Origin: Dastarcus helophoroides
Taxonomy: Eukaryota; Arthropoda; Insecta; Coleoptera; Bothrideridae
Assembly: GCA_028583605.1 (NCBI GenBank)
Contig: CM053329.1
Span: 33,566,992-33,630,991 of the forward strand
Length of the DNA stretch: 64,000 nt
Direction of reading: 5' to 3'
Part shown: positions 2,522 through 62,892 of the stretch, one piece after another
How positions within the stretch are numbered: the stretch's first letter is position 1
How the letters are laid out: each line of letters starts with the position of its first letter
Program-made: the position numbers and the translations under genes
Notes under the pieces: generated by a model
The model's input: the letters and a program-made list of their open reading frames with translations, nothing else
What the model was told of the DNA's origin: nothing
The model's database searches: none

Positions 2522-2701
2522 AAAAAACTGGTGGTTTAAAAATTGAAATAAAAGAGAAAGTACCTCTCTGAAGATGATAGCTTGGCTGTCGAAACGCGTT
2601 GTTTTTTAATCTTTCTTGGTTTCAGGGGACAAGATTTTATTTCAATTGTTGAAGATAACCAAGGACCAATCCGTTCCACCAAAAAACTTGTGGTTTAAAA
2701 A
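2522..2701 (+). mobile_element. Short PLE-tail-like repeat with hammerhead-like motif (locus 1)
   Basis: The body (2543-2680) starts shortly before CTGAAGA at 2568, followed by a 15-nt hairpin, GAAAC and GCGTT, and ends with the dispersed 3' tail (TTTCTTGGTTTCAGGGGACA, then AAGATAACCAAGGACCA). It is flanked by a 21-bp direct repeat differing at one base (2522-2542 and 2681-2701), a likely target-site duplication. The helix I partner after GCGTT is deleted here. At least seven loci of this family lie in the window. Confidence 0.7.
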
Positions 2702-6401: not shown

Positions 6402-6615
6402 TAATAAATATTTTATGCAAGAAGAATGCAACCTAGACTACAAATTCATGCAGCCCTCCAGGCGTCTCTAGTGAATCATAGGTAGCTGAACTACCAACAG
6501 TTGAAACACTGCCACCTAGCGAAGCGGTTGCTCTCTAGGAGAGTTCCCAGAAGACAAAGATTCTATAATGCACAGACCAATAGGTTTGAACATTTATTAG
6601 ATTCGAAGTTTGGAA

Positions 6616-6658
6616 ACCAAATACCGGTTTCGATCTTGTTAGATCTCGTCAGTTTGGT
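6616..6658 (-). ncRNA. Type I hammerhead ribozyme motif, copy 1
   Basis: On the minus strand: helix I strand ACCAAA (6658-6653), CTGACGA (6652-6646), helix II GATCT-AACA-AGATC (6645-6632), GAAA (6631-6628), helix III C-CG-G closed by A-T, then the cleavage triplet GTA. Helix I partner TTTGGT is 6621-6616. Predicted cut between 6622 and 6621. Beyond helix I there is an internal loop (ATAT opposite TT) and a further TTGG/CCAA helix, the kind of bulge that docks with loop II in natural type I hammerheads. All invariant core bases are present. Confidence 0.82.
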
Positions 6659-6992
6659 ATATCCAACTCGAATGCTAATAAATGTTCCGACAAGTAAGTA
6701 CTAAAACTTTCACAGGCGTCGAGCGAGTGACTTTTTAGTACTACCACCTATTGGTCCATAGAGAAACTATGGCCATCGCCAACAATGTCGTATGCAAGAA
6801 GAATGCAACCTAGACTACAAATTCATGCAGCCCTCCAGGCGTCTCTAGTGAATCATAGGTAGCTGAACTACCAACAGTTGAAACACTGCCACCTAGCGAA
6901 GCGGTTGCTCTCTAGGAGAGTTCCCAGAAGACAAGGATTCTATAATGCACAGACCAATAGGTTTGAACATTTATTAGATTCGAAGTTTGGAA

Positions 6993-7035
6993 ACCAAATA
7001 CCGGTTTCGATCTTGTTAGATCTCGTCAGTTTGGT
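6993..7035 (-). ncRNA. Type I hammerhead ribozyme motif, copy 2
   Basis: Identical core to copy 1, exactly 377 bp further right: CTGACGA at 7029-7023, GAAA at 7008-7005, predicted cut between 6999 and 6998. A transcript through both copies would release a 377-nt monomer. Confidence 0.82.
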
Positions 7036-7081
7036 ATATCCAACTCGAATGCTAACATTTATTAGCATTCGAGTTGGATAT

Positions 7082-7124
7082 ACCAAACTGACGAGATCTA
7101 ACAAGATCGAAACCGGTATTTGGT
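7082..7124 (+). ncRNA. Type I hammerhead ribozyme motif, copy 3 (inverted)
   Basis: Same core in the opposite orientation: ACCAAA 7082-7087, CTGACGA 7088-7094, helix II 7095-7108, GAAA 7109-7112, CCGGTA 7113-7118, TTTGGT 7119-7124. Predicted cut after 7118. With copy 2 it forms a roughly 110-bp near-perfect inverted repeat (about 6944-7055 against 7066-7174). Confidence 0.8.
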
Positions 7125-7188
7125 TTCCAAACTTCGAATCTAATAAATGTTCAAACCTATTGGTCTGTGCATTATATAATAAATATTT

Positions 7189-8345: not shown

Positions 8346-9045
8346 CTTCATTAATTTGCAAGTAGAATGCAACCTAGACTACAAATTCATGCAGCCCTCC
8401 AGGCGTGTATAGTGAATCATAGGTAGCTGAACTACCCAACAGTTGAAACACTGCCACTTAGCGAAGCGGTTGCTTCTCTAGGAAAGTTCCCAGAAGACAA
8501 GGATTCTAATTGCACAGACCAATAGACTTGAACATTTATTAGATTAGAAGTTTGGAAACCAAATACCGGTTTCGGTCTTGTTTGATCTCATCAGTTTGGT
8601 ATATCCAACTCAAATGCTAACAAATGTTCCGACAAGTAAGTACTAATACATTCACCGACGTCAATGCGTGTGACTCTTAGTATCACCACATATTGGTCCA
8701 TAGAGAAACTATGGCCATCGCCAACAATATCGTATGCAAGTAGAATGCAACCTAGACTACAAATTCATGCAACCTTCCAGGCGTGCATAGTGAATCATAG
8801 GTAGCTGAACTACCAACAGTATTTGGTTTCCAAACTTCGGATCTAATAAATGTTCAAACTTATTGGTATGTGCACTAGAATTCCTTGTCTTCTGGGAACT
8901 TTCCTAGAGAGCAACCGCTTCGCTAGGTGGCAGTGTTTCAACTGTTGGTAGTTCAGCTACCTATGATTCGCGGTATTTGGTTTCCAAACTTCGAATCTAA
9001 TAAATGTTCAAACCTATTGGTCTGTGCATTAGAATCTTCATTAAT
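8346..9045 (-). mobile_element. Retrozyme-like insertion 2 (377-bp units)
   Basis: A second insertion of the same family, flanked by a 10-bp direct repeat CTTCATTAAT (8346-8355 and 9036-9045). It contains a full unit starting at 8358, the start of the next at 8735 (again 377 bp), then two inverted pieces beginning at about 8820 and 8969. Both inverted pieces begin within a few bases of the predicted hammerhead cut. Many base differences from insertion 1 show it is an independent copy. Confidence 0.75.
8558..8600 (-). ncRNA. Type I hammerhead ribozyme motif in insertion 2
   Basis: Minus strand: ACCAAA (8600-8595), CTGATGA (8594-8588), helix II GATC...GACC (one A-C mismatch), GAAA (8573-8570), CCGGTA, then TTTGGT (8563-8558). 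The N7 base changes from C to T relative to insertion 1, which the consensus allows. Helix II is slightly weakened. Confidence 0.75.
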
Positions 9046-16249: not shown

Positions 16250-18220
16250 TCAGTTCCAATCAGTCACTTCGCCACTATACTTGCACAGTCTGTTCAGGTG
16301 TACCACTTTCATCTTACTCCTAGGGCTACGCTGTATACCAAGTCGTTGATCCTCTTCAGCACTTTGAACGGCCCTTCCAAAATGGCGTAAACCTCGGCGA
16401 AACTCTTTTCCTCGCTGAGGGTTGTATAGCCATACCAATTCGCCCTCACTGAAACCAGCATGGTTGGCATTCACGTCATATCTTGTTTTCATCCGGTCCG
16501 CCGCCAAGTTGATCTTCGTCCGCACCTGGGCATGCGTCTCCAATATCGCTTCCCTCAACGAAACCCCTCGTCTCCCTGGGGATCTGCCTTGGCGATCCAA
16601 ACACCAAGTCACACGGAAGCCGCAGTTTCCTCCCGAAGATCATCTTTGCCGGAGTCTGACCCGTAGTTTCATGAGTTGCCGCGCGATAGGCCATTAGAAA
16701 CAGTGGTAGATATCGGTCCCAGTCTTTCTGATGCATGAAAACGACCTTCGAAAGATGTGTCTCCAAGGTCCTGTTAAACCTTTTCACCATTCCATCAAAC
16801 TATGGATGAAAAGGTGTCGTTCGAGTTTCCTTTATTCCAAGAAGACGGCACACATCTTGAAAGACCCCCGATTCGAAGTTCCTTCCTTGGTCCGAGTGTA
16901 GTTCCAAGGAAACACCAAATCGACAGATGAAGTTGTCCACACTGTGGTAACTTCCTGGTTTGGGATGGCGTAAGCTTCAGACCACTTACTGAAATAATCC
17001 ATGGCCACCAAGGTGTACTTGTTTCCATCGTCTGATGCTAGAAACGGCCCTGCCACATCGATTGCAATTCTTTCAAAGGAGCTCCCACATTATACTGTTT
17101 CAGAGCCGCTTTGTTTCTTGTACGGAGACCCTTGGATGCAGCGCAGATGACACATTTTCGACACCACCGCTCGACGTCCTTCCTGCAGTTAACTCAATAG
17201 AAACGTTTCCGAATTTTCTCCAGGGTCTTGTTCATCCCCAAATATCCACCAGAGGTCCCGTTGTCTACCTCCCACAAGACTTGTGGAATCTTCTCCTGAG
17301 GTACCACCAACTGCAAGTTGACGCATTTTCCATCCGCGCTTTCCCATGCTCTCTTCAGTACCCCGTCCTCTACCTGAAGGGATTTCCATTGGATTCACAA
17401 ATTCTTAAGAGCTGGACTTTTGTCGGAAACTTGTTGCTATTCAGGTATATCTCCAGCTTCTTTCCATTCCAATATGGGTCCGATATCAGCATCGCTCTTC
17501 TGTAGCTGTCTAAGACCTTCAACAGCCCATCCATCTTCTGGCTGGACAGACGTGACCCTTACATCCACCATGCCCCATGATCCTCAACTCGTCTACAGTA
17601 TTTGCAATCCTCACAAGGTCTTCTGGATAAAGCGTCAGCGTTGTTATGCTGTCGTCCTGGTCGATGTGCACCTTAAAGTGATACTGTTGGAACCTTTCTA
17701 ATCATCTAGCCGTCTGTCCCTCTGCGTTCTTCATTCGAAGTAACCAAGAAAGCGCCCGAATAATCTGTCCTTGAACTTGGGACATCACAGCCCCAATACC
17801 GACGTTGCTGACATCAGTGTCTAACACGAACTTTCCATTCTGCTGAGGATTAGCTAAGATCAGGCTTGTGCACAAGGCGGACTTCAGTTTTCGAAAAGCG
17901 GTATCACAATCGGGAGTCCAGACATAAGGTGTTCTTCCTTCCGTTAGTCGATGTAGTGGCGCAGCGATATTGGCAAAACCTTTCACAAATCTTCTGTAAT
18001 AGGTGCACAACCCAATGAACTTCTTCAACTCCTGTTTTCCTTTAGGTCTGGGCCAGTCACGGATTGCTTGACTATTGCGTGCCACAGTAACTTTGGCTCC
18101 TGTGTCCTCTGTTGCCTGTACATTCCTTCCATCCATGCTGGCTTCTACCATCAAACTCTCCTTGGTCCTTTTTATCTGTTTGATGAAAAGAGCTTTGGGG
18201 GCTGGTTTCTTGACATTGGC
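16250..18220 (-). pseudogene. Gypsy pol remnant (protease start, RT end, RNase H, integrase)
   Basis: On the minus strand: a protease start with ATEDTGAKVTVA (about 18110-18065) runs in one frame straight into the RT C-terminus and RNase H start (WPRPKGKQELKKFIGLCTYY, then KFVLDTDVSNVGIGAVMSQ). The rest of the protease and the RT palm have been deleted, making an artificial fusion. Next come the RNase H end (HNNADALSRRPC, about 17650, other frame), the integrase zinc-binding region (TSGGYLGMNKTLEKIRKRFY stop VNCRKDVERWCRKC, about 17260-17130) in which the usual histidines are changed, the integrase core (YTLVAMDYFSKWSEAY, about 17010; VKRFNRTLETHLSKVV, about 16785) and a C-terminal tail (ENELVW-like GELVWLYNPQRGKEF). 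Several frameshifts and stops. Confidence 0.85.
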
Positions 18221-18499
18221 TAGTGAGTTCTTCTTCTCGCCGTGTTCTTTTCTTATGATTATTCAAAAGCTGCTAAGAGTAAAAATATGTTGAATTCAAG
18301 ATCCAAAAATTAGAAAGTTGGATCTTTAATTCGCTTTTCATAATTTTTCTCTGCGACCACTTTTTTTCAAATAACAACCACTTAAAAATCATTAACCACT
18401 TCGAAACCCATTACAATCATTCTAATTCATTCGCGGTGCATTTAACGAAAAATAACAATAGAACAATAATAATTCGTTAACTATTTCAGATAAATGTGC

Positions 18500-23867: not shown

Positions 23868-25842
23868 AAAGAAACTCATCTGATCACAAGCTAGTAGCAG
23901 CCTCTCACTCTCTTCAAATACCACCCTCTTCTCAGACACCGCCCCGTAGGGTTTGGCACTTTAACTCTGCAAACTGGGAAGAATGAAGAGATTTCTTTGC
24001 ATCTTTCCCATAGCAAGAAGTCTGCTTTAACTTAGATAACTTTTCCTCAGTCGCCGAATCAATCACTAAAACCATTCTGGTTGGTATGGAATGTTTAATT
24101 CCAAATTCCCTCCAGTAGCCTCCAGTGAACCTTGGTTCAGCAAAAAATGTACCTGGGCTGTCTCCTGCAAAATTCGTGCATATCGTCGTTGGAGAAATAA
24201 TTTCTCAGTGGAGACTCGTATTACCTTCGTAAATGCACAAAATTTTTGTAAACAGGCAATTGACGAGGCAAAACGTGATTTCGATCATAAAATGCGCCTG
24301 ACGCTTATCAACTGTCCCAACGGTTCCAGGTCCTTTTGGGGATTTACAAAGTCGATTGGAATAAATTTTACATCTTTAAATTTTCCACCTTTACTTAATG
24401 ACAATAACAATATTGCGACTACTTCCAAGGAAAAGGCTGACAAGCTAGCCTTAATGTTTGTTGAAAATTCCAAAACTGATTCTTGAAACCCAGAACCTCC
24501 TATTATTCTTAAGGATGGCACTTCGATGCCTGAAGTTGGTTTTAGACAACACACAATTAGGAAGATTCTTCTCGAGCTCGACACCTCGAAAGCTTCTGGC
24601 CTTGATGGTATCCTCGCTATGGTTCTTAAGAAGTGCGCCCCAGAGTTGAGACCTGTCCTAAGCAAATCGTTCACACACACTTACAACAAAGATGTATTCC
24701 CTAACATCTTGAAATCTGGTAGAGTGCAATCTGTCACCAAAAAGGAAAAAAGGAATCTGGCTAACAACTATGGCCCTATATCTTTGTTGCCCGTTATATC
24801 TAAAGTAATGGAAAAGGTTATCAACATCGAAATTCCTAAATATCTGGGGGAGAATAGAATCATTTTGGACAGGCAATACGGTTTTAGACAACAACGCTCA
24901 ACTGGCCATCTACTGGCCTATGTTACTCATATCTGAAACTCAGCTATGGAAAAACATAGTAAGGCTAGGATTGTAGCCTTGGATATCTCAAAGGCTTCTG
25001 GCAGAGTCTGGCATCGATCTTTTCTCGCCAAATTAACATCTTATGGTCTTCCTCCTGGACTCTATCATTTGATATCCAATTTTCTCGCTGATGGATCTCT
25101 TCAGCTCGTCGTCGATGGCATCTCATCCGAGACATTTGCGATTATTGCAGGAGTGCCTCGGGGGTCTGTCCTGTCTCCTACTATGTTTCTCTTTCACATA
25201 AACGATCTCTTAGCTTCAACTATCTTCCAATCCTATATACAGCTACGCATAGTAACCTGGTGTCATCTTTTTTCTCCGACAAACTATTATCCGTCGCTGC
25301 TTCAAATCGACTAAGGGAACAGCAGATACGGATGATTAATCGGAATCCAAAATCATTCTGTAATGGGGTAGGAAAAATCTGGTCAGTTTCAGCGCTTCAA
25401 AAACTCAGGCCGTTGTTTTCTCTAAGAAAACATCAAGAGATAATGCAACAAACAAACGTACTAATAGATGATAAAATCCTCCCGATGGGATCTAATCTGT
25501 CTATCCCAGGAGTGAATGTGAGAACTAACTTCTCTTGGGACGATTATATGCGCACCATTGCCAAGTCCGCCTCTCAGAAGCTCAGCTTTCTTTTTAAGGA
25601 TAAAAAGTACTTCACACCTCATCAGCTACTCACACTACACAAAGCTTAAGTTAGGCCAACACTAAAACACTGTTTTCATGTTTGGAGTTCAGCCCCAAAG
25701 CACACTTTAACTCTTTTGGATTCAATTCAAAGAAGAACGATTCGCCTAATTGACGACGAGAGTGACCGATTCTCTCGAAACACTAGAGCTCGAGCGGTTG
25801 GTGATTTATCTCTTCTCTACAAGTACTTTCACTCTAAATAGA
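23868..25842 (+). pseudogene. Jockey-like LINE, 5'-truncated and broken
   Basis: Begins within the end of the APE endonuclease (NSSDHKLVAASHSLQ at about 23870) and continues through the linker (VWHFNSANWEE, a stop, FFASFP) into reverse transcriptase: LDTSKASGLDGI, NYGPISLLPVISKVMEKVI, DRQYGFRQQRSTGHLLAYV, ALDISKASGRVWH, GVPRGSVLSPTMFLFHINDLL, and the thumb/C-terminus SASQKLSFLFKDKKYFTPHQ, VRPTLKHCFHVWSSAPK. The first palm Asp is lost (family consensus AFDRVWH, here ASGRVWH). A small deletion at about 25245 destroys the YADD box and shifts the frame. Stops at 24484 and 24934 also break it. No poly(A) tail was seen. Confidence 0.88.
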
Positions 25843-27059: not shown

Positions 27060-27317
27060 CATAATTTTTTTTGATATTTCCTTGAAATAAAAGCCTATCG
27101 GAAAAATGTATTGAGTAGAATGTGGAGCAGTGTAACTGCGAGTCTTTAAGCGTATCAAGTTACGACTTGTTTGTTTACACACCGCGCCGCCGAACAAACT
27201 TGACTTACGGCGCGCTCAAAAGTATTTTGACACGCATTTGAGTTGACGAACTCTCGCAGATCACTTGTTCCATAATTTTTCTTTCGACGTATATTTACTT
27301 ATTGTGATTACTTCAAT

Positions 27318-28340
27318 ATGCCTAAGTGTAAGGAATATTCTTGTGACTTTAAAGAAGCTGTAATAAATGCATTAAAACAAGGATTTAAACAAATAGAAGT
27401 TGCTCGTATGTTTAAAGTGTCTCGACAGCTAGTTAACTGCTGGAATAAAGTCTATAACAAACGGAAAACTGTCGAAAATAAGCCTCGAACGGGTCGTCCA
27501 AGAAAAACTTCTTCTTACGTGGATCATATTATAAAAAAGTTATCAGCAAGTGATATCCGGATGTCTGCTGTAATGATAAGAAATGAATTAAAAGAAAAAT
27601 ACAACGTAGACATTCATGTTTCTACTGTTAAACGACGCTTAAAGGTTTTAGGATTACATGGCCGAAGACCGGCTAAAAAACCTTTAATATCTAAGAAAAA
27701 CAGGAAGTCCCGTCTTGAGTTTGCGAAACGGTATATCTCGTGGTCAAGTTCACAGTGGTCTAAAGTTTTGTGGAGTGATGAGAGTAAATTTAATTTAATG
27801 TCATCTGATGGTATCAAGTACATTCGGCGTCCAGTAAACAAAAAATATGATTATCGGTATCAAATACCTACAGTTAAACATGGAGGTGGTAGTGTGATGG
27901 TTTGGGGATGTTTTTCACGGTCTGGAGTTGGACCCTTAGTTCGAATAGAAGGAAAAATGGATCGGTTTATGTATGCAAGTATATTAAAGTCTCAGATGCT
28001 ACCATTTGCAAAACATCACATGCCAGCTAAGTGGTATTTTCAACAAGACAATGATCCCAAACACAGATCACAGCATATTAGGAACTTATTAAATCGTGAA
28101 AGAGTCAAAGTTCTCAAGTGGCCAAGTCAAAGTCCCGACTTGAATCCGATAGAGCATCTCTGGGAAGAATTAAAACGTAGAATAAAAGCCCAAAATTATT
28201 CAAATAAAAATGCTTTCTTTGAAGCTTTGAAAAATGAGTGGGATAAAATTCCAATCGAACGATTACAAAAATTAATTGACTCAATGCCAGCGCGCTGTGA
28301 GGCTGTCATAAAGGCCAAGGGATATGCTACTAAATACTGA
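27318..28340 (+). CDS. Tc1-family DD34E transposase, apparently intact
   Basis: 340 residues, the usual length for Tc1 transposases, with no stop or frameshift. The N-terminus has a paired-like helix-turn-helix pair: the first about residues 10-50 (IEVARMFKVSRQLVNCW), a GRPRK AT-hook-like linker at 59-63, and the second about 65-115. The catalytic domain has WSDESKF (D154), the glycine-rich GGGSVMVWGCFS (189-200), QQDNDPKH (D244) and WPSQSPDLNPIEHLWEELK (E279). D244 and E279 are separated by 34 residues: DD34E. It cuts and pastes the element by binding the terminal repeats and targeting TA. The first ATG of the frame is used; it lies about 85 bp inside the inner left repeat. It could be active, but expression cannot be judged from sequence. 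Confidence 0.95.
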   Translation: MPKCKEYSCDFKEAVINALKQGFKQIEVARMFKVSRQLVNCWNKVYNKRKTVENKPRTGRPRKTSSYVDHIIKKLSASDIRMSAVMIRNELKEKYNVDIHVSTVKRRLKVLGLHGRRPAKKPLISKKNRKSRLEFAKRYISWSSSQWSKVLWSDESKFNLMSSDGIKYIRRPVNKKYDYRYQIPTVKHGGGSVMVWGCFSRSGVGPLVRIEGKMDRFMYASILKSQMLPFAKHHMPAKWYFQQDNDPKHRSQHIRNLLNRERVKVLKWPSQSPDLNPIEHLWEELKRRIKAQNYSNKNAFFEALKNEWDKIPIERLQKLIDSMPARCEAVIKAKGYATKY

Positions 28341-30418: not shown

Positions 30419-30645
30419 AGGAATGGACTGGTCCTTGGTTATCTTCAAAAATTGAAATACAAATCTTGTCCCCTAAAACCAAGAAAGAGTAAGAACAAAA
30501 CAAAGATTGCTCTAACGTGTTTCGATATCCAAGCTAACATCTTCAGAGAGATACTGCTTGGCTAGCGAAACGCGTTAGAGAAACATTTGTTGTGTTTTTT
30601 AATCTTTCTTGGTTTCAGGGGACAAGATTTGTATTTCAAATCCCC
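30419..30645. mobile_element. Head-to-head pair of PLE-tail-like repeats (locus 3)
   Basis: Minus-strand copy (about 30421-30545) and plus-strand copy (about 30546-30640) meeting at the hammerhead-like core. At the junction most of the plus core is deleted (GATACTGCTTGGCTAGCGAAACGCGTTAGAG), so only the minus copy keeps a CTGAAGATG block. Confidence 0.7.
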
Positions 30646-45619: not shown

Positions 45620-46192
45620 TTATTGCATATTACTCGCGTTAGTTTCAATTTTTTTCGCTAATTCCGATATAACTTCCCTATAAATAAGCGGATCCATGTT
45701 AGTACCTATCATGACCAAAATCCACCAATCGCCAATGTCGACTTTTCTTGAGATAGCCTCGCAGACTTCGATTGGTATTCCGTGGTTTTTCGCGTGGAGT
45801 ATTCTAGGTCGAATTTTTGGCATAACAATGATGATGACCCTGTAGACAATCAGGCAAGTGAGCATCGTCGCCATGATCATGAACCAAAACCAAATGAATA
45901 TGTAAGTTTTTTCGTTAACTATATTCAAAGGCAAGATGCATAGGCTGTCGTGTTTCTGTATAGTGCCGGAGGCACCATACTTGTGGAATATACACTTGGT
46001 GACCCGAGGGAAGACGTAGACCATTGGATCGACCCGATCCTCTTGTGCTTGTTCGGAGAAGTTCATCACTCTCCATCCGTACGAAAGGAACTCACCGTCG
46101 AAGAATTTATTCATTAAATATAATTGGACTAATATATTTACTAGGCACAGACATTCGCACGCCCAGTAACGTATGGCGTAGAGGTTGTGTCT
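45620..46192 (-). CDS. Innexin, last coding exon (TM3, second extracellular loop, TM4, C-terminus)
   Basis: 190 residues plus stop, after a TTTTCCAG acceptor at 46193. Phase 0 with the preceding exon. The exon begins RHNLYAIRYWACECL: TM3 is about exon residues 4-27. The second extracellular loop carries the two conserved cysteines (VFPRVTKC and HDSLC, 17 residues apart) and HKYGASGTIQKHDSLCILPL, very close to the innexin consensus. TM4 is about residues 97-123 (YIFIWFWFMIMATMLTCLIV). A cytoplasmic tail of about 65 residues contains VDIGDWWILVMIGTNMDPLI and YREVI. Innexins build invertebrate gap junctions (or hemichannels) in the plasma membrane. No break is seen. Which paralogue (inx2/inx3-like or other) cannot be told. 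Confidence 0.95.
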   Translation of the reverse strand, partial: RHNLYAIRYWACECLCLVNILVQLYLMNKFFDGEFLSYGWRVMNFSEQAQEDRVDPMVYVFPRVTKCIFHKYGASGTIQKHDSLCILPLNIVNEKTYIFIWFWFMIMATMLTCLIVYRVIIIVMPKIRPRILHAKNHGIPIEVCEAISRKVDIGDWWILVMIGTNMDPLIYREVISELAKKIETNASNMQ

Positions 46193-47124
46193 CTGGAAAA
46201 GAAATCATCGCGTTAATGCTGTGCGTGACATAATGTTATTGTGTGGTCAAGGAGATTGTGGTGTTAGTAACCTTCGATTTATGTTTGCATATGTACATGT
46301 TTTTCATCAGTAATTCAATTATACTACCAATCAAAGTGATGAAAGATGTTGTACACATTATATTTTTCTCTAGACAAAGCACACTCAAGTGGTGTTTATT
46401 CATATCAGTTTTATTTCCCTGGAAATATATTCTAAGTGCATTATTCCTCGGCAGATAACGTGAGTTCCTTTAAAAAAGTAACCCCTGCCGCATCATTTTT
46501 TTATCTGGTTTACATTTTAACTCTATGCTAAGAAGTAACTCAAGATTTCGGTCATTATTTGCTGAGAAAGAAAAAATATTATAAATCGATCAAAATTCGG
46601 CCGAAATCGAAACCAAAACTTGTTTAAAAAATTACATTATAACCCCAAGTCTAGTATGCACGTCCTGGATTTATAACAACTTAGCGTATGTCTCAACAGT
46701 TTTAGCACAAAATACTTAACCACGCTTTTTTATAATAAATAGTTTTATTCGAACTTATATTATTTACTGCAATTGACAGCTTAGTAAAGCTGTAATTAAC
46801 AGCTTAGTAAATTAAAAAATTACTTCTTTAAACCAAAGGAGGTCAGTGAGTTAAATGAGTTCAATGAGGAGCAATTTTCTGCGAATGTCAATCATTAGAT
46901 TTAGGTAGCTTTAAAATCAACATCAACTACGAGTAGATTAGATTACACTTGATTATATATGGATCGTTTCGTCCACCCCACACCCCCACACCTCGACCTA
47001 AAGAGATCTTTTGTGCATACCCTGTTCTATGTAGTTCCCAGGTTCAAACTCTTGTAAAAGTTTATTATGGACCTGGGATTAATTTTTTCCTTATCTGAGG
47101 GGTCTAAGGACGCATCCATCCGAG
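46193..47124. other. Innexin intron, no further feature
   Basis: Intronic sequence between the last exon and the LINE. AT-rich, nothing recognised. Confidence 0.6.
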
Positions 47125-57446: not shown

Positions 57447-59647
57447 TATTTTAAAAAAAAAACTTCTTTAAGACTTCAACTGTCCATGAATGGCAATAAA
57501 ACATGCCAAAAACTGCCAAAAAACATGCACGATGTAGGTGTTAAGTTTTCAATAAAGGGCACCAAGAGCTCTTGGCTTTGAAAGAAACGGAGATAAATCT
57601 CTAGAATTCCAAAGTGACTCGTTTAAATGTCTGCTCTTAAAATACTTTTGGGAATGAAATTTAGAAAGTTGAATTCTTACAAGGAATTTCACCGTATCTT
57701 CTTCGAAATCATAAGTAGCCTCCTACAAAGCTCTAAATCCTCAAAAATATAAATCAGAAGAGTAACTTCTTAGGAAAAATATTAATCTAAGGTCTAAACT
57801 CTCAAAAACAATTAATCTAAAACTCTAGAGTTGCAGTGAGATTCATCTACAACCTAAGGCTCTTAACGCTCAAAGTAAGTCATCTAAAGTCACAAAAAAA
57901 CTTATTTACGGACGTAACAGTTTTAAACACTTGTCTTAGAAAATCAAGATTAATGTTTAAAATATTAAATTTTAACTAAACTCTACTCTAGACCCTAAAC
58001 TCATTTAGAGCTCCAAAGGAGGAAACCCTAGAGGAGGTTCTAAGTTCCAAAGGCAATACATCTAAAATATTAAATCATCAAAAAACTAGTTCGAATTAGA
58101 CCGAACATTTTTATGGAAACTTTTTTTTTTCAAGAAACTTTTCTAATGATAAACCAAAATGGTAAATTTTCAAGGAAATTCACATAGAGCTCTAAAGTCT
58201 CAAGTTCATATAGAATTTGAAGTCTTCATCAGATTCATTTACAGCTTTCAAACCTTAACGAAATGATGGAGCTTCTAAAATGTTAAAAAATGTGAAAAGT
58301 GCCACTGGCAAGGAAATTCCTCATAATTCAGAAGTCTTACGAAAATGTATAAAAATTACTAAACCATCTTAACCCCACATTTTTAAAGAAACTTTTTTGG
58401 AATCAAAATCGAAAATACCAAATTCTCAAAGTCTTCTAGAACGGCAAGTCATAAGAAAGTTCCCCTAAAGCTCCAAATTCTCCACGGACCCGTTTAAAAA
58501 AGCACTAAATTAAAGATGAAACGCATCTGAGGCCCCTCATTAAAAACAAAGCAGTAAGAGGATTGCCTTTCAACCAAACTGTTAAATTCTTAGGAAAGTT
58601 AACCTAGAGCTTTGAACCATCAAGATCAAGATGAGTAACTGCATGCCCAAGATTGAGACGTAAAGTGTAAAACTCTAAATATTAATTGGCTAATTCTGAA
58701 TCTAGCCCCGCAGATTAAGTAATTAACGCATGCGTGATTTATAAATCTAAATACAGAATTAGCTTTTTCTTTGCACAATCGGAAAAGCTTTGAGATCACT
58801 TAAATTGAAATATTAAAAGACTTTTAAGCCATGAAATCAAATCATTCACGATAAGAGTCAGAAAAGGAGAAAAAAAGCATTTGGTAACTTATATTGTTAC
58901 TTTAGCTTGTCTTTGATGGTGTTAGTTTCGTTGTATGCAAGTTAAAACAAACAAAAACAGCATGAGCCTGCAATGTTGCAAAAACAAGTCGAAGTTGAAT
59001 TATCCTTGGAAATTTCGCACGTCCTCTTGACTCCATGTGGCCAGAACAAGTAAATTACGTGATCAGCTTATAAGAACCTTTCAAGATCATTAACATCCAA
59101 ACGTTTTTTTATCAAATTGCGTAAATGGGTCTCCACAATTGCAACGTCGTATCTCATAATGACACCATGTGACTATTACAGCAAAAAACTAGCCATATTC
59201 AGCACACCACGTCTAATTACGTTCCAACCACATTTTACAGTTTCAGTGTAAACTACATCCTTATTTGCAAGAATGATTTCAAGGCTTTTTCCAGCCACAC
59301 GCGTATGGTAATCAGCTGATTTGCATGAAAGTTTTCACACATTCGCTTTTGTCATTTTAATACAAATAACGTCGCGTTAAAATAATTTCTATTTGACACA
59401 TCTGCATTTGATATTATTCGATATAATTAGCATATAATTAAAATCAAGATGTATTCGTTTAGGTCAATTGATATTCATGTGGAGCATTCTCGAGTCTATA
59501 AATGGTCAAAGCAATTAGCAATGTACACGAGTTATCGATTGACAAATGTTAATACAGAGTAGTATTCTTCGAATTCTTATGATACTTCAACACATGTTGG
59601 TTTAATTTCAGATAGCATCGTGTCTTCCTTAAAATTCTGGATTTTTA

Positions 59648-59765
59648 GATCAATTCGTATCTCTCTGAAGATGATAGCTTGGCTATCGAAACGCGTTAGA
59701 GCAACCTTTGTTGAGTTTTTTTATCTTTCTGGGTTTCAGAGGACAAGATTTGTATGTCAATTTCT
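59648..59765 (+). mobile_element. PLE-tail-like repeat with the best-preserved core (locus 7)
   Basis: A single plus-strand copy from GTATCTCTCTGAAG to GGACAAGATTTGTATGTCAA. The core matches what appears to be the family consensus at every position. Confidence 0.7.
59661..59701 (+). ncRNA. Hammerhead-like motif in the PLE-tail repeat
   Basis: Helix I CTCT (59661-59664) / AGAG (59698-59701), CTGAAGA (59665-59671), one extra T, helix II GATAGC-TTG-GCTATC (59673-59687), GAAA (59688-59691), minimal helix III C-GC-G and cleavage triplet GTT, with the predicted cut after 59697. The extra base between CTGANGA and helix II departs from the strict consensus. One natural viroid hammerhead (CChMVd plus strand) is known to have such an insertion. 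Confidence 0.55.
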
Positions 59766-62700
59766 TAAATCATTTCGACTTTGATTTGGTCTTTTAAGTA
59801 TTATTATAGGTAATCTAAAAAACTCCAGATTAGAATATCCAAATAGAAATTAGCTACACCAAAACTGTAGGTCAGATATTTTTATGTATTATTATCGATT
59901 GATAACATTAAAATTTTAGCTCCTTATTTAGATATGGCTATCGAATAACCTTAACAATTCATTTCCAGCTATTACTTTTCCAGTTAATATTATCTAAACT
60001 GCGACTTCTGCTTATCCACATATATACATACATGTGCGCCTCGGAACAGAACTGGAAGTTATTTATTCAGGACCGGATTTTGTGAATACTATTGCTGCCG
60101 TAAATCATATCACTTATGTTAAGAAATAATTTAACTGAAACATTTTCTGGAACTGTAAAGTTACTAAATATAACTTCAACAACACCAGTGACAATTGCAG
60201 AATCAGAATCGATTCTTCTTTTCGACGTTCAAAAGTTTCTTACGTAACACCATGAACAATGACCGTTTAGATGCTTTGGCAGTGATATTCATCAACAAAA
60301 ATATGGTACAGGATGTAGACAATTTTGATGAGAAAATAATACAGAATACTTCACTTCTTTGAAAATTACAGAGCAAATTTTATTTACAAAAAATAAACTT
60401 TCTACGTTCTTGTTTAGTTTAAGTAAAAAATTGTAATCATTTATTTGATTTCCAAAGACAATTTGCATGAAAAAGCGATATAATAGATCATTTCCATGCG
60501 AACAGAGATAATTTTAATTTGTGTGCATCTGTATAACTCTACTAAAACAGTGAATTAAATCTGCAAGTCAGTATTAACCAAAGTACCACTGCTGATAGAA
60601 GATATCAGGCGATTAAATCTTATATCAACATATTCTAACATTTGTATTCAACGCAAAATGTAGGATACTGAGCTTTATCTGAGAAGAATAAATACGTTTA
60701 AATAGAAAACAAATACACTCGCGTAAAAAAATAAATTCCTTTTAGCATGTAGTTTCCCGGAAATCGATAAATTATTTCCTGCGAGTACTGGACAATTTAT
60801 AAGATCAAGTGCCCACTCGTGCAATACTTAGTTATAATATATTGTAACATACGATATTCATTTTTCGAAAATTACTCGTTCAAATGTGATGCAATATGGC
60901 GCAACTCCGACCAAATATAATTCTTATAAAATGGTTTCTGGTTCCCTAGATATGGGATAGGTCAGGTCAAGGTAACGTAGATTATAGTGGAATATTTAAC
61001 CACACTAATCACGTTTGGATGAAGTCTAGAGCAAACGACCTCTACAATTTAACGCTTGAAAGAAAACCTTGAAAAAGAATTACCTCGACGAACTTATCTT
61101 GGGCTTGCTATGGGATGGACAATTGCGTTTAGGAAATTAGTTTGGTAATTTCGGTCTCATTGTTGGATTAATGGGAACCGCCAACATTAATTAGTGATGT
61201 AAATTAGGCGATTTGTATGTGTGAATTGTATTAACATAACACTGATTTACGACTCTTGCTCGTTATGATTATGATCACTATTTATGCAACTTTTAAATAA
61301 TTTAGTGGATCTTTTTAAAAAAATAACAGGGGAAGATGCTCAACAATACTTCCATGAGTTATTTTTTTTAATTCAATTTGCAAATTAATAAGTTTAAACC
61401 TCCAATATCAGTAGACTGCAGCACAAAATACTCAAGTTGACAGGAAAGATAGTCACTTCAGCCAGAAACAATCTCGAAAATATCACTCCATATACATTCA
61501 CTTCAAGAAGAAATCCAAAAGCTTTATAAGAAACCATAGCAATATTCCTAAGCTTGCGTCTGATTTTGGAGCTTAAGGATAGTTGTTAACGCTTTCGTAA
61601 TAATATTCACTCTTTAGAAGACAAATTATTTTCATGATATTTATTTCTAAATAAAATTCTCCTCATGGTTGAATTTCACTAAAGAAATAACCCAAAAGAT
61701 GCCCTTTGAACTGGAAAACATTTAATGGAAGTTTCATCTAAATCGCTTTAACTATTTCTAAAATCAGCCCAGACAGACAGACGTAAAATCGAATAACTTT
61801 TGTATGGACTTTCATTATAAGTGAAAAAGCATATTAGACAGTTCAGAACACCAACTGAATGCAGAATTTCATATGTATCAGCCATCCACAAAGAAAATTA
61901 AAAAAGCGACCCCAAGAACTACCGAGGGATAGCTGTGATTCCAACTATAGGAAGAATATATTCTCGGATTCTTAGAAATCTAAGAAGATATTGAAGATAA
62001 GCAACCGAAGGAACAAGCAGGATTCCGAGCGGGAAGGTGTACGAAAGGCAACCTTTTTAGTTTAAAAATAACTTTAGAAAAGAGAACTCAGCGAAGTAGA
62101 GAAATCTATGTAGCTTTCATAGAACTAGAAAAAGCTTATGATAGTGTCTTAGTGTTTCAATTATAGGAAGCAATGAAAAACTCGATATAAGACCATCATT
62201 AATTCGGGCCTTAAACAAAACTATGCAGCAATGAAAATCGAAACATCACTGATGGAGTCTTGTAACACAACAAAAGGACTAAGACAAGGATGTTATTTAT
62301 CTCCTGTATTGTTTAAAATATACATAGACCAATTCTTGAAAGGCTGGACACGTTAATGTAAAAACATAGGACTTTGGGTGGGGGGCGACATACTCTGTAT
62401 TTTGCAGATGACCAGATGGTGATTGCAGAGGGTGAACTAGATTTATGGTTAGCTATCTTATATAGCTATATGGTTAGAAAGCTAAACGAAGAGTATACTC
62501 TAGCTGGAGTTACAATCAACCTGAACAAATGTGAATACCTAACAGTGAGCAGTGATAATAACACAACCTACCTCTGGAACATGGAACAATAAAAAACGTC
62601 GACAAAGCGAGATACTTGGGAGTCATCTCCAATAAGCAGGGAAATAGTAACGACGAAATTGATAGAAGAATAACAAAGGGTAGAAAAACCATTGGAGCAT

Positions 62701-62847: not shown

Positions 62848-62892
62848 TGTTCGACGTTTCGCCCACCATCGTAGGGGGCTTCTTCAGAAACA
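62848..62892 (-). ncRNA. Minimal hammerhead motif of the Penelope-like element
   Basis: Minus strand: helix I TGTTT (62892-62888) / GAACA (62852-62848), CTGAAGA (62887-62881), one extra A, helix II GCCC...GGGC (62879-62861), GAAA (62860-62857), C, then cleavage triplet GTC (62855-62853). Predicted cut between 62853 and 62852. Helix III has no loop, the minimal form that is expected to work as a dimer. Hammerhead motifs in Penelope-like elements are established knowledge. Confidence 0.65.

Follow-up and report, generated by a model that had tools for sequence, protein, structure and literature searches.

The closest described relatives of the element analysed here are the non-LTR retrozymes of metazoans, which, in the available part of their published description, carry a type I hammerhead in low-GC repeats of 170-400 nt arranged as dimers to multimers, have target duplications of more than 4 bp, co-exist with Penelope-like elements (PLEs) and count insects among their carriers (PMC7229834; Cervera and de la Pena, 2020). 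From shared features, the same partial text proposes PLEs as a strong candidate for retrozyme mobilisation (PMC7229834). The source also describes satellite hammerheads of amphibians (newt, axolotl), with units of about 330-350 nt and a weak helix III, and states that those of the axolotl cleave better as dimers (PMC7229834). Plant LTR retrozymes are likewise ribozyme-bearing non-autonomous retroelements, to which the accessible parts of two sources assign a type III hammerhead, LTR, PBS and PPT sequences and 4-bp duplications (PMC7229834; PMC7761336). With respect to PLEs, the purified PLE protein of Anolis cuts both strands and extends them, favours AT-rich targets with an ATT motif and initiates inside its RNA at two sites bounding the tail; start sites are alike on both strands, and the hammerhead is dispensable for insertion in this purified system (PMC11167929). 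Some PLE insertions of Adineta contain head-to-head inverted pLTRs and duplications of 8-10 bp, the latter missing in some copies, according to the available text (PMC3846280).

Here we analyse a stretch of 64,000 nucleotides from Dastarcus helophoroides (hereafter the window) together with related insertions elsewhere in the same assembly. By the features tested, save its Rfam score and helix III, we infer that the element is a metazoan retrozyme, for which cleavage and circular RNA would be expected: it has the type I hammerhead, the short low-GC unit, the tandem copies and the long target duplications, the likeness being to the published description, and it differs in that its helix III is loopless. 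A further difference is its two-site, head-to-head anatomy with 12-bp duplications, which the available text of PMC7229834 does not describe. Unit length and weak helix III recall the amphibian satellites, from which the bare CCGG helix III, the target duplications and the head-to-head structure set it apart, while the plant elements differ by the features listed above. With PLEs it shares head-to-head copies and two start sites bounding an optional tail (PMC11167929; PMC3846280, in the part available), as well as, on the reading proposed below, cutting and extension of both strands, together with AT-rich targets, target duplications and minimal hammerheads; unlike autonomous PLEs, its unit has neither RT nor GIY-YIG. 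The retrozyme class and the PLE proposal are already known, and the insertion anatomy is the new part. Judged by titles and the beginnings of abstracts, no such signature has been reported for retrozymes among the open-licence literature listed, and other reports may exist. With respect to how animal retrozymes re-enter DNA, a precise PLE-like signature is now seen in a sample of insertions within one assembled genome, with a count across the whole assembly lending support at one of the two sites.

Two retrozyme insertions in the window

A first-pass annotation, made from the letters alone, had reported a retrozyme-like element with three perfect hammerhead cores, two of them exactly 377 bp apart, in an insertion with a 12-bp target duplication. 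The three cores, their spacing and the duplication, exact at both flanks, were all confirmed, and the designation is upheld by the type I core, the 377-nt non-coding unit, the tandem copies, the duplications and thousands of dispersed matches. The features of this insertion, with X and Y denoting two unit positions defined below, are:

6414..7176, no strand: element 1, a retrozyme insertion of 1.7 direct units (sense minus) and an inverted part-unit (sense plus), head-to-head
6402..6413, no strand: left copy of its target duplication, TAATAAATATTT, an exact match to 7177-7188
7177..7188, no strand: right copy, 12 bp, the same TAATAAATATTT
6414..7055, minus: X-started piece, read as cDNA, 642 nt, from unit 208 to 321
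7054..7176, plus: Y-started piece, read as cDNA, from unit 313 to about 58
6622..6998, minus: reference 377-nt unit, base 1 being the first after the predicted cut between GGTA and TTTGG
6616..6658, minus: type I hammerhead core, copy 1, identical 43-nt core
6993..7035, minus: type I hammerhead core, copy 2, identical 43-nt core
7082..7124, plus: type I hammerhead core, copy 3, identical 43-nt core

Because TAATAAATATTT is identical on both sides, we take 6414-7176 as the element proper, and, with the duplication excluded, the Y end falls at unit 58. The direct repeat (6407-6678 and 6784-7055) is 99% identical, and the X-started piece crosses the predicted ribozyme cut twice. The core reads ACCAAA-CTGACGA-GATCT-AACA-AGATC-GAAA-CC-GG-TA-TTTGGT. 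The unit has a GC content of 42.4% and no ORF, the longest stop-free frame of the doubled unit being 72 codons. A loose pattern, CTGANGA...CGAAAC, occurs eight times in the window versus 0.12 expected by chance; four of these matches are the hammerhead cores of elements 1 and 2, and four lie in other repeats.

Beyond the first-pass annotation, we identified the head-to-head, two-site structure, which bears on insertion, and a second element:

8356..9035, no strand: element 2, a retrozyme insertion related to element 1, about 92% identical
8346..8355, no strand: left copy of its target duplication, 10 bp, CTTCATTAAT
9036..9045, no strand: right copy, 10 bp
8558..8600, minus: fourth hammerhead core, degraded, with CTGATGA and, by eye, two helix II mismatches

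Element 2 consists of three pieces, with an X end at left and a Y end at right, and both right-hand pieces break at unit 373-375, adjoining the predicted cut.

The annotation had called the hammerheads of element 1 complete, which holds for the core, helix I (ACCAAA/TTTGGT) and helix II (GATCT/AGATC) but not for helix III as an ordinary hairpin: CC is followed directly by GG without a loop, and closure as an ordinary hairpin within one motif is therefore precluded. By this reasoning, the CCGG palindrome could form helix III only between two ribozyme motifs, which suggests cleavage by paired ribozymes. In Rfam searches, nothing in the whole window reached the gathering threshold; in a 1-kb search all three cores matched Hammerhead_HH9 (RF02275) at a sub-threshold 34.4 bits versus a cut-off of 52 (E 1.1e-6), and element 2 scored 33.6 bits against the same cut-off. 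A 103-nt RNA is predicted to fold at -38.1 kcal/mol versus a shuffle mean of -16.3 (z -7.2), the low energy stemming mainly from a lengthy extension of helix I. The predicted minimum-energy fold retains helix II and most of helix I and pairs part of the core in a non-hammerhead manner, which counts against the ribozyme reading, these nearest-neighbour energies being ones that leave out tertiary contacts. Every pair of helices I and II is preserved in 79 or more of the 84-86 unique copies scored, and the helices show no informative compensatory change among 86 unique copies because the copies are too alike.

At 7010-7107 we noted matches to miRNA precursors that were sub-threshold, far below their cut-offs. 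A miRNA identity was rejected, the matches corresponding to the palindrome of the head-to-head junction in element 1; if transcribed, this palindrome would give a long hairpin and could supply small-RNA pathways.

Insertion ends, targets and template RNA

Copy number was assessed, as the annotation had suggested, across the 539-Mb assembly (50 contigs), where a 31-base core pattern allowing up to three mismatches gave 3,666 + 3,656 = 7,322 matches, versus 0 + 0 for the reversed pattern. Unit 28-52 gave 11,581 matches and unit 182-206 gave 7,731 (control, 1), versus 3,547 for unit 212-236 on the other side of site X. This drop across X is independent of hammerhead selection, and local conservation could add to it, the two flanking 25-mers differing in degenerate letters. 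Exact-pattern matches numbered 0 in the collections viral_contigs and genome_contigs, neither of which holds animal genomes.

For the anatomy of insertions we segmented 96 clusters, two in the window, which is on contig C5, and 94 from 78 loci (L007-L084) fetched around 100 listed core matches, all zero-mismatch and from the initial 7.9 Mb of contig C1; the fetched loci happened to include additional copies, which make up some of the clusters. Pieces shorter than 20 nt, clusters 60 bp or less from a locus end and exact duplicates were left out. The outer sense-3' ends concentrate at two sites, to which 128 of 151 belong: site X (unit 203-220; 59 ends, modes 207 and 208) and site Y (unit 52-68; 69 ends, modes 56 and 61-62), the two windows together covering 35 of the 377 positions and having been set post hoc, after the ends were known. 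The other 23 lie elsewhere. Outer sense-5' ends (n=41) are scattered, with 7 in the X window, 3 in that of Y and 31 elsewhere. The possibility that the outer ends of insertions mark the ribozyme cut was rejected, given that they cluster at two other fixed RNA positions.

By orientation, the 96 clusters comprise 50 of type -+, 5 of -++, 1 of -+-, 25 of +, 14 of -, 1 of ++ and none of +-; hence 40 run in one direction only, and 55 of the 56 two-strand clusters are head-to-head, with minus at left and plus at right, the -+- cluster being the remaining one. Among the 55 two-ended clusters, 42 pair X with Y, two have X-X, two Y-Y and nine at least one other end, so that, where both ends could be classed, X-Y pairing accounts for 42 of 46 clusters (binomial 2.6e-9). 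Target duplications in these 55 measure 12 bp in 18, 13 bp in 6 and 14 bp in 4, or 12-14 bp in 28 altogether, which is at odds with copies existing only as satellite DNA without target duplications, an outcome that the annotation had named as speaking against its reading. Five more have 10-11 bp, giving 33 of 55 with at least 10 bp, and 22 have shorter ones or none; a flank-swapped control yielded, per set, 0.15 duplications of 10 bp and no longer ones.

Paralogous empty sites were found for 12 of 40 joined flanks (at least 75% identity across the site), and six of the 12 agree at no fewer than 37 of the 41-43 columns compared. For three the best match is ungapped, namely L077 (41/42), L039 (39/41) and L008 (35/40), the last being a one-direction cluster with ends other than X or Y. 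Empty sites of this kind support true insertion of the retrozyme clusters. With the X side at left, the target logo is AT-rich and reads roughly TTTAAC, the 12 bp, then RTTAAA. The base before the duplication on the X side is C in 19 of 33 insertions (p 1e-7), right position 5 is A in 26 of 33, and on the Y side a G directly follows the duplication in 10 of 33 (p 0.03). This last bias is weak, and we therefore do not call the target strictly two-fold symmetric.

Both outer ends are best read as starts of antisense cDNA, one per target strand, and the insertion, in turn, as target-primed reverse transcription in both directions, begun at two internal positions of the RNA. The annotation had pictured a multimer cut into 377-nt monomers, possibly circularised, and reinserted. 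The support for this chain is at most indirect. The outer ends lie mostly off the cut, and 104 of 128 X- or Y-started pieces run through it; 40 of the 128 exceed one unit (longest, 1,388 bp), and as many as 3.7 units occur in one stretch, in a sample that favours cut-crossing and long pieces because its loci were chosen for the hammerhead core. Since most pieces cross the cut uninterrupted, the template would have been circular or uncut multimeric RNA when copied. Inner cDNA ends fall at the cut (unit 1-3) in 6 of 128 cases, a modest surplus (p 6e-4) in a window set post hoc, and in L037 both inner ends are at unit 1; this slight surplus may be the sole trace of cleavage in the insertions. Similarly, 9 of 69 Y-started cDNAs stop just before X (209-220; p 3e-4, again modest and post hoc), as if a complex had occupied X on the same RNA.

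Two-piece junctions overlap by 1-8 nt in 31 of 50 cases, 25 of these by 1-3 nt, as expected from microhomology joining or chance overlap. In 15 of the 50 the inner ends lie within 20 nt of each other, versus 6.2 expected after shuffling, a nearness that fits a shared RNA 5' end and, in some cases, fold-back too. Disagreement at subfamily variants amounts to 10.8% between successive passes of a cDNA and 18.2% between paired cDNAs versus 42.2% between different insertions, the last figure being based on a random 5% of pairs; at transversion sites only, the values are 9.6%, 12.7% and 45.8%. Successive passes disagree less than different insertions, and one cDNA therefore usually reads one kind of RNA, which would be compatible with an RNA circle and a homogeneous multimer alike. 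In three loci (L007, L009 and L059) variants are mixed within one cDNA, which argues against a single circle each time. More generally, the insertions suggest how DNA alone may reveal circular templates and ribozyme cutting.

In a predicted RNA circle, Y (49-62) pairs with X (195-207) with a pair probability of 0.53-0.68, and of 335 window placements this stem ranks in the top 2. Over 42 near-full-length copies it ranges from 0 to 13.9 expected pairs, several copies being near zero.

A Penelope-like element and the proposed mechanism

GIY-YIG matches are plentiful in the same genome, numbering 91 among the 150 scored of 1,070 candidates, and at one locus (L085), that of a PLE, RVT_1 and GIY-YIG occur together in a 417-aa frame. 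The region following this frame supplied a pattern with 1,118 genome matches. We compared ten loci of this PLE, two lying by chance beside retrozymes (L044 and L045) and eight chosen by the pattern (L086-L093), which in the case of these eight spans site a, so that insertions with two a ends are under-sampled. Seven of the ten are two-ended and head-to-head, and the other three run in one direction, one of these having a 7-bp flank match. In all seven two-ended loci one end lies near site a and the other near site b, the two sites being about 36 nt apart. Six of the seven have target duplications (12, 12, 12, 12, 14 and 10 bp), and the base preceding the duplication on the a side is C in 6/6; in L044 no duplication was called automatically because an unrelated match had stretched its cluster. 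Paired start sites, head-to-head structure, mostly 12-bp duplications and C on the X or a side are therefore common to the PLE and the retrozyme, whose insertion signatures thus appear to match, in a comparison of ten loci of one PLE.

No significant sequence similarity was found between the retrozyme and the PLE of L085. On a first look at the start sites against the unit, b versus Y was tied for best of the 377 positions and a versus X ranked 13; homology of the PLE start sites with X and Y was rejected, as p was 0.10 in a joint test that allowed slack, and similarity between the start sites is therefore not claimed. Sites a and b lie by one predicted stem-loop in most folded copies, L090 and L091 being the exceptions. 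Within the end region of the PLE (L085 1012-1258), a degraded minimal hammerhead-like motif, GCCAG..CTGGC-GAAA-TACGTA-TC, with a palindromic helix III, was seen by eye.

Ends, orientation, duplications, empty sites and the matching PLE signature are features of the genome sequence itself. From them, we propose as the probable explanation that this is a non-autonomous retrozyme and that Penelope-type RT/GIY-YIG machinery, priming two cDNAs, copies its RNA into new sites; we infer cleavage, circles, the identity of the enzyme, dependence on the PLE and the copying of one RNA by both cDNAs. A GIY-YIG endonuclease would make staggered cuts, 12 bp apart, in the two strands of an AT-rich target, whereupon one cut 3' end would prime antisense cDNA at RNA site X (unit ~206-208) and its counterpart would do so at site Y (unit ~56-63). 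The two cDNAs would run on circular or multimeric ribozyme RNA, often beyond one full unit, and their ends would be joined head-to-head, in many cases through 1-3 nt that they share, with fill-in of the stagger yielding the 12-bp duplication. The hammerhead would serve to make monomers for a ligase to circularise. Evidence that counts against this explanation comes from the outer ends outside X and Y, the one-direction clusters, the two-ended clusters with short or missing duplications, and the dispensability of the hammerhead in the purified PLE system. PLE mobilisation of ribozyme RNAs thereby becomes directly testable with purified protein and the 377-nt RNA.

Other routes to such insertions have to be weighed. 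Both retrozyme ends are mostly fixed and the unit is without a tail, whereas twin priming by LINEs leaves one end at the RNA 3' tail and the other at an internal, variable position. Insertion by a LINE-type RT, with L1-like twin priming making the inversion, is accordingly quite unlikely, even if twin priming is known for L1 and the target logo resembles AT-rich LINE sites; the PLE of the same genome, on the other hand, shows the matching paired ends, 12-bp duplications and C. Self-priming, or fold-back, of one cDNA on its antisense template could instead account for the inverted part, as suggested for Penelope elements of Adineta in the accessible text (PMC3846280), and would suit the 15 junctions with neighbouring inner ends, that of element 1 included. 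We consider it unlikely: the remaining 35 junctions are farther apart, a second end fixed at Y is left without a cause, and correlated stops are also expected if both cDNAs run off the same RNA. In element 1, moreover, the 6-nt spacer reads, by eye, in the sense of the second piece and not as a loop.

The ends fall on fixed RNA positions, X and Y differ instead of forming inverted repeats, insertions vary in arm length and in where the inner junction lies, and stretches reach 3.7 units; a fold-back DNA transposon or MITE with inverted repeats is for these reasons hardly credible, despite the target duplications and the inverted arms, which in element 1 measure 119 nt and are 99% complementary. 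Multi-unit arrays with flank matches of just 7-8 bp (L011, L063) would be in keeping with satellite DNA that carries a fossil ribozyme and was spread by recombination, yet an array of 2.7 units (L025) bears its own 12-bp duplication, and the dispersed insertions, with their 12-bp duplications and their paralogous empty sites, likewise make this origin highly improbable.

Returning to priming of two cDNAs by Penelope-type machinery, we tentatively suggest a more specific version, which may be correct but for which we would not claim an even chance: a two-headed Penelope complex would sit on one ribozyme-made circle and prime with both cut target strands, its subunits fixed at facing X and Y, the insertion being a double rolling-type copy of that one small RNA, and the pairing of X with Y, or of a with b, would be a general rule of PLEs explaining their optional tail. 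Independently of this version, the paired start sites would offer a mechanism for the head-to-head repeats and the tail of Penelope elements.

Other features of the window

A motif of the form CTGAAGATG-stem-CGAAAC is present at 2568-2595 (plus), 30519-30546 (minus) and 59665-59692 (plus), in a high-copy, partly palindromic repeat, with helix-I-like CTCT/AGAG and a palindromic ACGCGT beside it. By eye, this suggests a minimal hammerhead of the PLE type, enlarged by one base. Rfam gave nothing at 59500-59900, and nothing at the gathering threshold at the other three places with motifs of this kind. A similar minimal hammerhead-like motif, CTGAAGAAGCCC...GGGCGAAACGTC, lies in another repeat at 62856-62887 (minus), and a copy of this repeat was itself the target of a retrozyme insertion, the empty site of L032 matching window positions 63132-62782.

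Retroelement remains are found at 17702-18262 (minus) and 24487-24936 (plus), namely an RT RNase H piece and a weak RVT_1 match. A 354-aa frame for a transposase of Tc1/mariner type, containing HTH_Tnp_Tc3_2 and DDE_3, spans 27276-28340 (plus). An innexin exon occupies 45620-46204 (minus); its closest matches among named sources are the beetles Rhamnusium (84%), Agrilus (79%) and Leptinotarsa (79%), over 74% of the query.
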